Source: Tautonia plasticadhaerens
Lineage (GTDB): Bacteria; Planctomycetota; Planctomycetia; Isosphaerales; Isosphaeraceae
Direction: 5' to 3'
Length of the DNA stretch: 64,000 nucleotides
Assembly: GCF_007752535.1 (NCBI RefSeq)
Contig: NZ_CP036426.1
Coordinates: forward strand, 5,332,001 to 5,396,000
Below are positions 46-5,622 of the stretch, piece by piece. Each line of letters begins with the position of its first letter. Position 1 is the stretch's first letter. A program made the position numbers and the translations under genes. Under the pieces are notes generated by a model. It did not search any database, was not told where the DNA came from, and worked only from the letters and a program-made list of their open reading frames with translations.

Positions 46-1845
46 ATGCAGCAGTACAACCCCGCCAACCCCCTGATCGTGCAGGGCGACCGGACGGTCC
101 TGCTCGAGGTCGATAATCCGCTCTACCCCGAGGCCCGAGACGCCCTCGCCCCGTTCGCGGAGCTGGAGAAGAGCCCCGAGCACATCCACACCTACCGGCT
201 CACCCCCCTGTCGCTCTGGAACGCGGCGGCCGCCGGGATGACGGCCGACGAGATGGTGGACGTGCTCGGCCTCTTCACCAAGTTCCCGCTGCCCCCCAGC
301 CTCGGGAATGACCTGGCCGAATTGGTCGGCCGGTACGGCCGGGTCCGGCTGGAGCGGGTCGACGGTGAATTGCGGCTGATCTCCTCCGATCGCCCCTTGC
401 TGGAGGAGCTGGCCCGCCGCAAAGGGTTGCGTGATCTACTCTTCCACCGGATCGACGACACCTCGTTCGCCGTCGACGATTCCCACCGCGGCCTGCTGAA
501 GCAGCAACTCATCGCCGCCGGATACCCGGCCGAGGACCTCGCCGGGTACTCCCCCGGCACCCCCTTGGAGGTGAACCTCCGGGAGGGGGAGGCCCGCTCG
601 GGCCGCGCCTTCCAGGTCCGGGACTATCAGCGGCAGTCGGTCGACGCCTTCTACGCGGGGGGGGACGCCCGGGGGGGCTCCGGGGTGATCGTCCTGCCCT
701 GCGGCGCCGGCAAGACAATCGTCGGCATCGCGGCGATGGCCAAGATCAAGACCCAGACCCTCGTGCTGACCACCAGCACGACCGCCGTCGAGCAGTGGAG
801 GCGCGAGATCCTCGACAAGACGGATCTCACCGACGAGCAAGTCGCCACCTACACCGGGGACTCCGAGAAGAAGATCGCCCCGGTGACGCTGGCCACCTAC
901 CAGATCGTTACCTATCGACCGAGCAAGACCGGCCCCTTCCCCCACTTCAAGCTGTTCGCCGAGCGCGACTGGGGCCTGATCGTCTACGACGAGGTCCACC
1001 TGCTGCCGGCACCCGTCTTCCGGGTGACCGCCGACATCCAGGCCCGACGCCGGCTCGGCCTGACCGCCACCCTGGTCCGGGAGGACGGCCGGGAGGACGA
1101 CGTCTTCAGCCTCATCGGCCCGAAGAAATTCGACGTGCCCTGGCGGATCCTGGAGCAGAAGGGCTGGATCGCCGAGGCCCGGTGCGTCGAGATCCGGGCC
1201 GGGCTGCCGGACCCGAACCGCATGGAGTACGCAATCGCCGAGTGGCGGGACAAGTTCCGACTCGCCAGCGAGAACCCCCTGAAGGACGAGCTGGTCGAGG
1301 AGCTGCTCTCCCGGCACGACGGCCCCGACGACCGCGTCCTGGTCATCGGCCAGTACTTGAACCAGCTCAGGCGCCTCGCCGAACGCTTCGAGATCCCACT
1401 GATCACCGGCCAGACCTCCAACGGCGTCCGGGAGGATCTCTACGGCAAGTTCCGTCGCGGCGAGATCCGCAAGCTGATCCTCTCCAAGGTCGGCAACTTC
1501 GCCATCGACCTGCCCGACGCCAACGTGATGGTCCAGGTCTCCGGCACCTTCGGCAGCCGACAGGAGGAGGCCCAGCGGCTCGGGCGGATCCTCCGGCCCA
1601 AGGGGGGTGAGGAGCCCGCCACCTTCTACTCGCTCGTCTCCCGGGACACCCGGGAGATGGAGTTCGCCCACCATCGCCAGCTCTTCCTGACCGAGCAGGG
1701 CTACTCCTACGAGATCCTCGACGCGTCCGACCTGCTCGACGGCCTCGCCCCCGGCCCCCGCCCCCCCGAGGCCGACGACGAGGCCGACGACGAGGCCGTC
1801 GACTCGCCTCCCCGTCGAGAACGCGCCGGCGCGAGGGGCGAGTGA
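46..1845 (+). CDS. XPB/ERCC3-type superfamily 2 DNA helicase
   Basis: A 599-residue 3'-5' DNA helicase/translocase of the XPB (ERCC3, Rad25) family, expected to unwind DNA in repair or transcription-linked processes. The N-terminal ~190 residues are the XPB damage-recognition-like region. The helicase core follows, with Walker A CGAGKT near residue 221, a DEVH box at 315-318, motif III LTATL and motif VI QRLGRILR near residues 510-517. The C-terminus is an acidic, low-complexity tail. ATG 46 is preceded by GGAG at close spacing. It heads a unit with the 75-residue gene 3 bases downstream and the XPB/Ssl2-like gene after that. Mycobacteria also pair an XPB helicase with a partner of this second type (established knowledge). 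Only 45 bases of upstream sequence are present, so its promoter is not visible. Confidence 0.93.
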   Translation: MQQYNPANPLIVQGDRTVLLEVDNPLYPEARDALAPFAELEKSPEHIHTYRLTPLSLWNAAAAGMTADEMVDVLGLFTKFPLPPSLGNDLAELVGRYGRVRLERVDGELRLISSDRPLLEELARRKGLRDLLFHRIDDTSFAVDDSHRGLLKQQLIAAGYPAEDLAGYSPGTPLEVNLREGEARSGRAFQVRDYQRQSVDAFYAGGDARGGSGVIVLPCGAGKTIVGIAAMAKIKTQTLVLTTSTTAVEQWRREILDKTDLTDEQVATYTGDSEKKIAPVTLATYQIVTYRPSKTGPFPHFKLFAERDWGLIVYDEVHLLPAPVFRVTADIQARRRLGLTATLVREDGREDDVFSLIGPKKFDVPWRILEQKGWIAEARCVEIRAGLPDPNRMEYAIAEWRDKFRLASENPLKDELVEELLSRHDGPDDRVLVIGQYLNQLRRLAERFEIPLITGQTSNGVREDLYGKFRRGEIRKLILSKVGNFAIDLPDANVMVQVSGTFGSRQEEAQRLGRILRPKGGEEPATFYSLVSRDTREMEFAHHRQLFLTEQGYSYEILDASDLLDGLAPGPRPPEADDEADDEAVDSPPRRERAGARGE

Positions 1846-1848
1846 GCG

Positions 1849-2076
1849 ATGACCCCGACCCCCGCGCCCCGGACCCCGATCAAGCTGCACCGCAACGTGG
1901 CCCTGATCCGCACCGAGGATCCCCTCGTGATCGAGGAGCTGATGGCCCGCAAGCCGCTGGCCCGGCTGATCGCCGGCCGCCTGTCGGAGACGGTCCTACT
2001 CGTCAGGCCGGAGGACGAGGCCGCCCTGCTGGAGGAGCTGAGGCGCATGGGGCACGCCCCCCGCGTCGTGCGATGA
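1849..2076 (+). CDS. Small protein matching the C-terminal domain of the downstream XPB-partner protein
   Basis: A 75-residue protein lying 3 bases after the helicase stop and ending 1 base before the next start, so it is clearly part of the operon. I know no named family for it. Its residues 18-69 align without gaps to residues 691-742 of the 747-residue protein encoded next, with 19 identities in 52 positions by my hand count, including shared DP, LRR and G positions. It therefore looks like a free-standing copy of that protein's C-terminal domain. A plausible role, by inference only, is to compete with or complement that domain when it contacts the helicase. Confidence 0.8.
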   Translation: MTPTPAPRTPIKLHRNVALIRTEDPLVIEELMARKPLARLIAGRLSETVLLVRPEDEAALLEELRRMGHAPRVVR

Positions 2077-2077
2077 C

Positions 2078-4321
2078 ATGGCGATGACCGACCCGACGCC
2101 CGACGACCTGCCGACCGACGAGCCCGAGGACGGCCCCGAGGGCGACGCCCAGGACGGGGACGGGGCCTCCCCGATCCCCTGCTCCTATCGCTCCGCCCTG
2201 GCCACGTCCGGCCCATGGCGGCTCCGGGCCATCCTCAAGGAACTGGGCGTCGACCCGGGCCGCCGCTCCCTCGGCCTGGACGAGGCGCTGGCCGAACATC
2301 TCGACGCCCCGAGCACCGTCGGCCGAATCCTCGACGCCCTCGGCCCCGAGCCGCACCAGGCGTTCGGCCTCTTCTCCCGCACCGAGACGCCGGTCTGGCC
2401 GGCCGTCGCCCTCGGCGAGGCCCTGCTCGGCCTGGGCGTCGACCCGGCCCGGGCGCTCGATCGCCCCCTCGCCCTCGGCCTGGTCGCCCCGATGCCGGCC
2501 CCGGACGGCCCCGATGACCAGCTCTTCCCGCTCGTTCCGGGGAGGATCCCCGGGCTGAGGTTCGTCGCCCACCCCGCCGCCCTCGAATCGACCCGCATCC
2601 GCCCCCCGCTCGGGGACGGGCCGGCTACCCTGGGGGAGCCCGCCCGGCTCGTCCGCGAGTCCGACGGCCTCGAGCCGGTGCTCCGCCTGGCGGCCCTCTG
2701 GCAGCTCGCCGACGCCGCGCCCCTGAAACGGACCCGGCAGGGGGATCTCTACAAGCGGGACCGCCAGCGTCTCGACGAGGATCCCGCCCTCGCCGGGCCG
2801 ATCGCCGACGTGCTCCGCCCCGTGGACGACCCCGTCTCCCGCTGGCTCAACCTCGCCCGGTCCGTCGGGCTGCTCCTCGACGAGCCGGATTCCGACCGGA
2901 TCGTCTCCGCGCCCTCTGAGTTCTGGGGCGAGCACGGGGTCCACCTGCCCCAGATGATCGCGGCCCGCTGGCTCGGTGGCGGCGACTTGCGCCTCGGCCC
3001 CGCCGCTGACCCCGGCTCCTCGCTCGCCCTCCGGATCGCCTCCCTGCTCGCCCTCGCCTCGGCCGGGGAGGACGACTGGTTCCTCCTGGAGGAACTCGCC
3101 ACCTGGCTCGGGGCGAGGATGCACCCGCCCGCCCCGGCCGAGTCGAAGCCCGAACGCCGGAAGGGCCGGCCCGAGCCCCCGCCGCCCGACGACCCGATGC
3201 TCGACGCGCTGCATGCCGCCCTGCTCGGCCCGGCCTACCTGCTCGGCCTCGTCCGGGTCGGCGAGTCCGGGCCGGGCGGTCTCCCGGCGGTGCAGCTCTC
3301 CCCCCGGGGCCGCTACGTGCTCGGCCTCGGCCCGCCGCCCCCGCCCCCCCCTCGGATCGAGCAATTCCTGTTCGTCCAGCCGAACTTCGAGATCGTCGCC
3401 TACCGACAGGGGATGAACCCCGCGCTGATCGGCCGACTGAGCCGGTTCGCCCGCTGGGAACAGCTCGGGTCGGCCCTGACGCTCCGGCTCAACTCCGACT
3501 CCATCGACCGCGGCCTCGCCTCCGGCCTCTCGGCCGGTGAGATCCGGGATTGGTTGGGCAAGCATGCCGTCCGCCCCCTCCCCGACGGGGTCTCCGGCGC
3601 CATCGACACCTGGGCCGGCCGACGCGACCGCCTCACCTATTTCTCCTCCGCCACGCTCATCGAGTTCGGCTCCCCCTCCGAGCTGGAGGAGGCCCTGGCC
3701 GATTGGCCTGAGGGCCCCTCCTCGCCGCCGATGCGGGTGGCCGACCGGGTTTTGCTCGTCGAGGACGAAGGCGCGATCCCGTTCAAACGCTTCCGGCTCG
3801 CCGGGGCCCGCGACTATCGCCGCCCCCCCGAGACCTGCGTCGGGGTCGGCGCCGACGGGGTCTCCCTCTCCGCCGACCCGGCCCGGGGCGACCTCTTCGT
3901 CGAGGCCGAGTTGTCCCGGTTCGCCGACCTCGACCCGGACACGCCCGCCGACGCCCTCCGACGCCGATACGTCGTCTCCCCGGAGTCGCTCCGACGGGCC
4001 TCGGCCGAGGGGATGACCGCCGCCTCGCTCTCCCAGTGGTACGCCCACCGGACCGGCGGCAAGATCCCCCCCGCCGTCCGCCTGATCGCCCGCCTGGTCG
4101 ACCTCGAAGGAGAGGGGCTCCCCCCTCCCCTCAAGGCCGACCGACCGCTCTTGCTCCGGGCCCCCGACCCCGAAATCCTCGACGGCCTGCTCCAGCATCC
4201 CGACACCCGCCCGTTGCTCGGCGACCGCCTGGGGCCCACGGCCGCGGTGGTCCGATCCGTCGACCCCGCCGCGCTCCGCGACGCCCTCCGACGGCTCGGC
4301 GTCCGGCTCGATCTGGACTGA
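2078..4321 (+). CDS. XPB/Ssl2-like helicase-associated protein (Helicase_C_3 type)
   Basis: A 747-residue protein without helicase motifs. It contains the segment FVQPNFEIVA near residue 431, characteristic of the XPB/Ssl2-like N-terminal domain family (often called Helicase_C_3). The N-terminal part (about 30-420) is helical and Leu/Ala/Asp-rich, with a Pro-rich linker near residue 350-420. The last ~55 residues form a small domain also present as the separate 75-residue protein upstream. Such proteins are encoded beside bacterial XPB helicases and are presumed partners of them. The start is ATG 2078, one base after the preceding stop, consistent with translational coupling. The exact biochemical role is unknown. 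Confidence 0.8.
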   Translation: MAMTDPTPDDLPTDEPEDGPEGDAQDGDGASPIPCSYRSALATSGPWRLRAILKELGVDPGRRSLGLDEALAEHLDAPSTVGRILDALGPEPHQAFGLFSRTETPVWPAVALGEALLGLGVDPARALDRPLALGLVAPMPAPDGPDDQLFPLVPGRIPGLRFVAHPAALESTRIRPPLGDGPATLGEPARLVRESDGLEPVLRLAALWQLADAAPLKRTRQGDLYKRDRQRLDEDPALAGPIADVLRPVDDPVSRWLNLARSVGLLLDEPDSDRIVSAPSEFWGEHGVHLPQMIAARWLGGGDLRLGPAADPGSSLALRIASLLALASAGEDDWFLLEELATWLGARMHPPAPAESKPERRKGRPEPPPPDDPMLDALHAALLGPAYLLGLVRVGESGPGGLPAVQLSPRGRYVLGLGPPPPPPPRIEQFLFVQPNFEIVAYRQGMNPALIGRLSRFARWEQLGSALTLRLNSDSIDRGLASGLSAGEIRDWLGKHAVRPLPDGVSGAIDTWAGRRDRLTYFSSATLIEFGSPSELEEALADWPEGPSSPPMRVADRVLLVEDEGAIPFKRFRLAGARDYRRPPETCVGVGADGVSLSADPARGDLFVEAELSRFADLDPDTPADALRRRYVVSPESLRRASAEGMTAASLSQWYAHRTGGKIPPAVRLIARLVDLEGEGLPPPLKADRPLLLRAPDPEILDGLLQHPDTRPLLGDRLGPTAAVVRSVDPAALRDALRRLGVRLDLD

Positions 4322-4661: not shown

Positions 4662-5246
4662 TCAGCGGGAGCGTTCCTCCGCGGCCTCCCGGAGCTTGCG
4701 GCGGGCCTTGGCGAGGATGGGGCCGACGGAGTTCTCGGGGATGTCCAGTTCCTTGCCGATCTGCCGGTAATTCAGGAAGGACAGGTGGTACATGCGGATG
4801 ACCTTCGCCTCCCGATCGGAGAGGTGCCGGAGCATCGCCTCGACATCCTCGGCCGAGGCGATCGGCTCGACGACCTCCTCGGTGAGATCCTCGACGTCGA
4901 CGGCCGCCCGGTGGGCCCTCGTATGGCCGAGCGAGGCCTCTCGCTGGCGCTTGACCATCTCCTTGACGCAGATCCGGCGGGCGACCACCGTGAGGTAGGT
5001 CGGCAGCGAACTCTGGGCCTTGAAGCGGCGGAGCACGGCGTAATCGTCGTCGACGACTCGCAGCAGGATCTCGGCGCAGATGTCCTCCACGTCGGCCTGG
5101 CTGAGCGTGACGCTCCGGGCGTAGGAGACGTGGTGGATGACGTGATAGATCAGGCCCATGTAGCGGTCGACGAACTCGATCCAGGAGCCGGGCTCCCGCT
5201 TCAGGCATCGGTCGAGCAATTGGCGGTCGAAGTCGCGGAGGGGCAC
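4662..5246 (-). CDS. ECF-like RNA polymerase sigma factor
   Basis: A sigma-70 family protein of about 194 residues. Region 2 lies near residues 10-90 (WIEFVDRYMGLIYHVIHH and the following QADVEDICAEILLRV). Region 4 is at the C-terminus, where LSDREAKVIRMYHLSFLNYR leads into the helix-turn-helix QIGKELDIPENSVGPILAKA. I chose GTG 5246 because GGGAGG lies 7 bases upstream; a longer in-frame extension to 5393 is Pro/Arg-rich and probably untranslated leader. It should redirect RNA polymerase to a stress or envelope regulon. No obvious anti-sigma gene is adjacent, although a small possible membrane gene follows. Confidence 0.88.
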   Translation of the reverse strand: MPLRDFDRQLLDRCLKREPGSWIEFVDRYMGLIYHVIHHVSYARSVTLSQADVEDICAEILLRVVDDDYAVLRRFKAQSSLPTYLTVVARRICVKEMVKRQREASLGHTRAHRAAVDVEDLTEEVVEPIASAEDVEAMLRHLSDREAKVIRMYHLSFLNYRQIGKELDIPENSVGPILAKARRKLREAAEERSR

Positions 5247-5622
5247 GTCCAGACCTCCCAGGTGAGTCGATCGAGCGGGGGGTGTGTCTCGGGGGGCTCG
5301 GGCGGTATCGCGGGCGGGATCGCCCGGCGAGGGAGGGGAGGGAAAGCCCACCCCGGCCTTCGATGGCCCCGGAGCCGACGCCACCGCCTTCATTCTTACG
5401 ACCCGGTCGATCTCCCCCGGACACCGGCCCGGAGGATCGCTCGACGCTCACCAATAAAGTCTTACACCGCGAACGGCTTGGGGCAAGTCGGGCCGCCCCG
5501 ATCGGGACCCCGGGAAACGCCATTCCTCGGACCACTCGGAATTGCTAGACTCGCCCCGACAGGGGGCCCCGCCGGGTCGCCGCCCCTCCCTCCTCCCCCG
5601 GAACCTGGCGAACGCGACGCCC
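5247..5622. other. Divergent intergenic region between sigma factor and response regulator
   Basis: These 376 bases hold no convincing gene. There is a small AT-rich patch at about 5448-5475 that could carry the promoter of the minus-strand sigma gene, and a weak -10-like TAGACT at 5546-5551 facing the response regulator. Neither has a good -35 element. Confidence 0.4.

Follow-up and report, generated by a model that had tools for sequence, protein, structure and literature searches.

The three genes near the beginning of the window (the whole stretch of 64,000 nucleotides of the Tautonia plasticadhaerens genome that was analysed) probably correspond, in a bacterium, to the XPB-p52-p8 portion of TFIIH, a machinery that has been described only from eukaryotes but seems to be present in bacteria as a three-gene set. 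The genes specify an XPB helicase (positions 46–1845), a small protein of 75 aa (1849–2076) and a partner of 747 aa (2078–4321). They are inherited together, and their joining in a complex and their function would, by analogy, follow those of the TFIIH subunits. All three lie on the forward strand of a genome of 9.4 Mb, and the coordinates agree with the preliminary description of this DNA, which had placed the small gene between XPB and partner with gaps of 3 bases (to XPB) and 1 base (to the partner). Downstream of the operon, on the reverse strand (4662–5393), is a gene whose translation alone resembles a sigma-factor-type protein.

The 75 aa protein is a p8/Tfb5-like single domain, as judged by PDB profile searches, the Pfam Tfb5 family, an AlphaFold2 model and Foldseek. 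By itself, the small ORF gave no Pfam or NCBIfam match. When a profile built from 21 small-protein sequences was used to search the entire PDB, the best five matches were all entries of yeast Tfb5 (E 0.005–0.009, the top one 0.0053). Yeast Tfb5 scored 19.4 bits with this profile, a value reached by none of 20,000 shuffled sequences (best shuffle, 13.0 bits), and a useful yardstick is the score of about 22 bits with which yeast Tfb5 finds human p8 (phmmer). In the same comparison the partner's last domain gave 1.0 bits, which is within the range of the shuffles, and the XPB segment gave 9.7 bits. Human p8 was not among the PDB matches of the small-protein profile up to E 10. Pfam Tfb5 (PF06331) was matched by five of the 21 members, the best at E 0.006, and is the family matched by the most members. 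A scan of 45 whole genomes with PF06331 returned 19 weak matches, eight of them on the 0.2-kb small gene, and its gathering cut-off was reached in none of the 45. Since this cut-off was never reached and human p8 was not found, the protein is called p8-like, and not a member of PF06331.

The AlphaFold2 model of the small protein (pLDDT 83.7) has a b-a-b-b-a fold, and Foldseek placed Tfb5 at ranks 2, 3, 5 and 12. Superposition of the model on Tfb5 with VIA-align gave Z scores of 5.3–5.6, with unrelated proteins scoring up to 6.7, the ferredoxin-like fold being a common one. As the Tfb5 score of 5.6 does not rise above those of unrelated folds, structure alone leaves the question of p8 identity undecided. 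Two other profiles were compared with the PDB. The wider one, which combined the small domain with the related domain of the Chloroflexota middle genes described below, brought designed repeat proteins to the top, Tfb5 having the higher score over a single stretch; its E-values were dropped as support because the repeat proteins rank first by summed weak repeats. The other, a profile of the partner's last domain, gave no TFIIH match.

The operon contains one type of small domain in four copies: as the free protein, twice in the partner (residues ~521–577 and 684–742) and once in XPB (~110–165). Only the relationship to the partner's last domain (684–742; positions 4127–4303, forward strand) had been noticed previously, as a gapless match with 19 identities counted by hand, and it was borne out. 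A BLASTP comparison of the single pair found 22 identities in 59 positions (37%) over partner residues 684–741 (E 3e-7), and an hhalign comparison of the small-protein profile with partner residues 673–747 was significant (probability 97%, E 6e-11), the 56 ungapped columns with 34% identity corresponding to about 19 residues. When sliding windows of 75 aa along the partner and XPB were compared with the small-protein profile (hhalign), the only matching regions were the partner C-terminus, partner residues ~516–577 and XPB residues ~110–165; all remaining windows of both proteins gave probabilities below 7%. The latter two copies, and the relationship to TFIIH, had not been seen before. The inner copy in the partner (residues 521–577; 3638–3808, forward strand) matches the small-protein profile at E 4e-7, and the copy in XPB (373–540, forward strand), in the position of a DRD-like domain, has a probability of 95.6–95.8% and E ~1e-8. 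Placing the XPB segment at the DRD position in this p8-like family makes the NTD and DRD of XPB, and the clutch and CTD of p52, look like one and the same two-domain unit. Across 199 genomes of the phylum, the small-protein profile detected 13 free-standing genes, all below E 1e-18, and a clear gap separates them from the next matches, which begin at about 1e-6. These weaker matches lie mostly inside long reading frames, and the last domain of the window's partner is among them.

Over residues ~50–577 the partner (2078–4321) is homologous to p52, and to this is added a C-terminal unit that resembles the XPB NTD and ends in a p8-like domain. Its AlphaFold2 model has a mean pLDDT of 86.3, and in a Foldseek search of the whole PDB the top 18 matches were p52/Tfb2 chains of TFIIH (best E 1.5e-10) and XPB chains came next. 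VIA-align superimposed residues 50–576 of the model on residues 18–459 of human p52 (Z ~14.6), with an overall rmsd of ~19 Å that reflects a different arrangement of the domains in the two structures; the p52-equivalent region spans positions 2225–3808 on the forward strand. Within it, the clutch domain (residues 426–519; 3353–3634, forward strand) matches the NTD of human XPB with Z 15.0 and an rmsd of 1.7 Å over 92 residues (VIA-align), and Pfam PF13625 is found at residues 431–542. The region of residues 521–577 was aligned to human p52 as far as residues 454–459; it is the equivalent of the p52 CTD, the binding site of p8 in TFIIH, and the partner's last domain sits in the extension beyond the p52-like region. 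That extension (residues 617–747; 3926–4318, forward strand) comprises an XPB-NTD-like part and a p8-like domain, and positions 617–736 of the partner profile match residues 49–174 of human XPB (E 4.5e-5). At the sequence level, a profile of 30 partners matched human p52 at E 8e-10, and every match up to E 0.03 was a p52/Tfb2 or XPB chain. Pfam Tfb2 (PF03849) was matched by ten of the 30 members (best 2.3e-9). The window's partner alone reached E 0.021 for Pfam Tfb2, which is under the cut-off, and also matched PF13625; in a phmmer search of the PDB with this single sequence, p52 was the only match (E 0.14). Membership of p52/Tfb2 is indicated both by the full-length domain architecture, in the structure search, and by significant sequence similarity, in the profile comparison.

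XPB itself (599 aa, 46–1845) consists of a clutch-type NTD, the p8-like domain and RecA1/RecA2. It matches the DNA repair helicase XPB family NF045503 with 850.6 bits (E 4.6e-256; cut-off, 610 bits), as well as PF13625 and ERCC3_RAD25_C, the clutch domain covering residues 10–137 (73–456, forward strand; PF13625, E 2.1e-38). A scan of the whole genome found no match over the cut-off for p44/Ssl1 or p34/Tfb4 and, since these were not found, the operon represents a sub-module at most, and not TFIIH. The idea that XPB replaces Mfd could be ruled out because Mfd occurs in all well-assembled genomes of the order, with or without XPB: it was found in 42 of the 45 genomes, including all 26 well-assembled ones and, among these, those that lack XPB.

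Purifying selection shows the small ORF to be a genuine gene, which evolves like XPB and more slowly than the partner. Compared with five relatives of the same order, dN/dS was ~0.05–0.37 for the small gene, 0.08–0.30 for XPB and 0.22–0.65 for the partner (ratios calculated from separate dN and dS values). In the order sample, XPB was detected in 40 of 45 genomes and the small gene in 39, these being 39 of the 40 XPB-positive and none of the five XPB-negative genomes (Fisher 5e-6, uncorrected for relatedness); the single exception among the XPB-positive genomes has a completeness of 68%. The phylum sample had a free-standing small gene in 13 of 97 XPB-positive and 0 of 102 XPB-negative genomes (Fisher 6e-5, likewise uncorrected). 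The small gene was also present at related loci, as the preliminary description would have it: the order XPB, small gene, partner is kept in 21 genomes of the order (the window's own included, and one with a partner ending at a contig edge) and in distantly related genomes of the phylum. L100–L102, which belong to one genus of the order, have the small gene behind XPB, with the partner ~3 kb off on the opposite strand (L101) or not seen in the stretch examined. In two relatives from the phylum (L098, L099) the partner frame overlaps XPB and no small gene was detected between them.

A wider survey covered 80 named XPB loci from many phyla. The small gene follows XPB in Gemmatales, other Planctomycetota and one Troglogloeales genome, and stands ahead of a partner gene in Hydrogenedentota (two genomes), Myxococcales (one) and Chloroflexi (one). 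Many of the 80 loci are without the small gene, some of them with XPB directly adjoining the partner. Several Chloroflexota (L113, L131, L142, L149, L159) carry a frame of 669–865 aa between XPB and partner, with p52-like stretches and a p8-like C-terminus, and a frame similar to this middle gene is found immediately 5' of the partner at an Acidobacteriota locus. The middle gene of L113 has an additional C-x-C...C-x-H motif resembling a SWIM finger. Outside the bacteria, Thorarchaeota (L147 8692–12126, L165 and L174) have an NTD-bearing XPB that is 57–58% identical to the query, and a p52-like partner of ~575–609 aa lies 2–4 kb downstream. A conserved ORF of 95–116 aa between the two was considered as a small gene and rejected, as it does not match the small-protein profile. 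The matches of this profile in Thorarchaeota were weak, in two of four genomes, and lay in a 570 aa frame taken as XPB itself.

Group profiles and a tree bear on the ancestry of the small domain. In hhalign comparisons, the small domain matched the domain of the Chloroflexota middle genes at E 4e-21, the partner domains at 2e-13 and the XPB domain at 4e-10. A FastTree phylogeny of ~64 columns set the small and middle-gene domains apart from those of the partner and XPB with a support of 0.91, and with low support elsewhere. Because the middle-gene domain is the closest and the tree makes this separation, the small protein appears from its sequence to be an old paralogue, not a local duplicate of the partner's end. 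It could be speculated, with slightly less than even confidence, that bacteria had the XPB-p52-p8 translocase module as an operon before eukaryotic TFIIH, or independently of it, that p8 is a separated p52-like C-terminal domain, and that the eukaryotic subunits derive from the prokaryotic module. An ancestry that is tenable but somewhat doubtful makes the small protein what is left, as the C-terminal domain, of a middle gene that once encoded a complete p52-like protein and lost its other domains in Planctomycetota, Hydrogenedentota and others, so that the likeness to eukaryotic p8 would be a parallel outcome in the same domain family and not the shared inheritance of a free-standing p8. The Chloroflexota operons, with a p52-like protein ending in the small domain between XPB and partner, speak for such an origin, as does the comparison of group profiles, in which no two groups are closer than the small and middle-gene domains, but the reverse direction, a fusion of the small domain to a p52-like protein, is equally possible and the tree, from so short an alignment, is weakly supported. 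The two accounts differ in ancestry alone; the mechanism would be the same, and a remnant of this kind is compatible with reading the operon as an XPB-p8-p52 module.

The preliminary description held that a copy of the partner's own C-terminal domain had been released as a subunit, possibly a regulator of the helicase, which implies no specific relation to p8. The significant similarity to partner residues 684–742 speaks for this, but the C-terminus of the Chloroflexota middle genes is closer to the small protein, the tree separates the small and middle-gene domains from those of the partner and XPB, and Tfb5 is matched by the small protein and not by the partner's last domain, which scored like a shuffled sequence; an origin as a freed duplicate is now unlikely. 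Slightly less probable again is that the small protein, as an accessory factor of the XPB operon with no relation to p8, has converged on a common small fold. Ferredoxin-like folds are indeed widespread, unrelated proteins were superimposed with higher Z scores and the E-values for Tfb5 are around 0.005, but the sequence profile, Pfam, the shuffles and the fold search all point to Tfb5, and the operon partner is independently a p52, the protein that p8 binds. An anti-phage or other mobile defence system built on an XPB-like motor is very improbable. Helicases with accessory genes are a frequent defence layout and XPB has weak PbeA helicase-domain matches, but the small protein and partner have no PADLOC match and, unlike mobile defence genes, XPB is present in 40 of the order's 45 genomes and its gene order is conserved.

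The reading of the operon as an XPB-p52-p8 module can be set beside what has been described for TFIIH. There, the p52 clutch and the XPB NTD form a pair (PMC6422496), p8 and the p52 CTD are alike in fold and pair through strands (PMC7708078, PMC6422496), and p52/p8 stimulate the XPB ATPase but keep its DNA-driven rate limited (PMC7708078). TFIIH stability in human cells requires p8 only if the p52 CTD is present (PMC12618060). By analogy, the clutch of the p52-like protein would dock onto the XPB NTD, and a pseudo-symmetric heterodimer would arise from the small subunit and one of that protein's p8-like domains, most likely residues 521–577, the equivalent of the p52 CTD. The small protein may in this way prevent the partner from mispairing, and the pair would brace the second RecA domain of XPB, which would set the ATPase and DNA translocation of the helicase and make the complex more stable. 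In the cell, the module probably serves to open DNA during repair, without replacing Mfd. The earlier proposal of a three-component module with the small protein as a regulator of the helicase finds good support in the gene order, the co-occurrence and the TFIIH parallel as far as the module is concerned, while the complex and the regulatory function are what TFIIH would lead one to expect; the transcription-coupled role that was also suggested would be speculative.

Loss of p8 or p52 from eukaryotic TFIIH leads to trichothiodystrophy and xeroderma pigmentosum, and we know of no settled function for bacterial XPB. If the module is what it appears to be, bacterial XPB gains a defined complex, a small system becomes available for asking how p8 and p52 control XPB, and the findings bear on the origin of TFIIH. 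A survey of the open-access literature, for the most part of titles and abstracts, turned up no description of a bacterial p8 or p52; the nearest publication in that material concerns archaeal RAD25-related 'TFIIH-like' genes (PMC9258230).

Among known systems, the archaeal XPB-Bax1 helicase-nuclease complex (PMC13024598) resembles the operon in giving XPB a dedicated partner, but Bax1 is a nuclease on the thumb and HD2 of XPB, with no p52/p8 counterpart described. Bacterial loci in which XPB occurs in one region with a partner-like gene for a helicase-associated PF13625 protein, for example in Actinobacteria, are also similar, but no free-standing small gene was detected at the Actinobacteria loci. 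Compared with p52 (GTF2H4, yeast Tfb2), the partner differs in its length (747 aa against 462 in human), in the additional C-terminal XPB-NTD-like and p8-like unit and in an identity of ~15–18% in structural alignments, but it has the same domain order, with N-terminal helical domains followed by the clutch and the p8-binding CTD. The small protein differs from p8 (TTDA, GTF2H5, yeast Tfb5) in being bacterial and below the Pfam gathering cut-off, and in having a G..P+V motif conserved at its C-terminus and one more predicted strand (residues 72–74) in its model. It is otherwise, like p8, a single domain of ~65–75 aa with a predicted b-a-b-b-a fold and a recognisably similar sequence (E 0.005), its operon partner is p52-like, and it is homologous to a domain of that partner.
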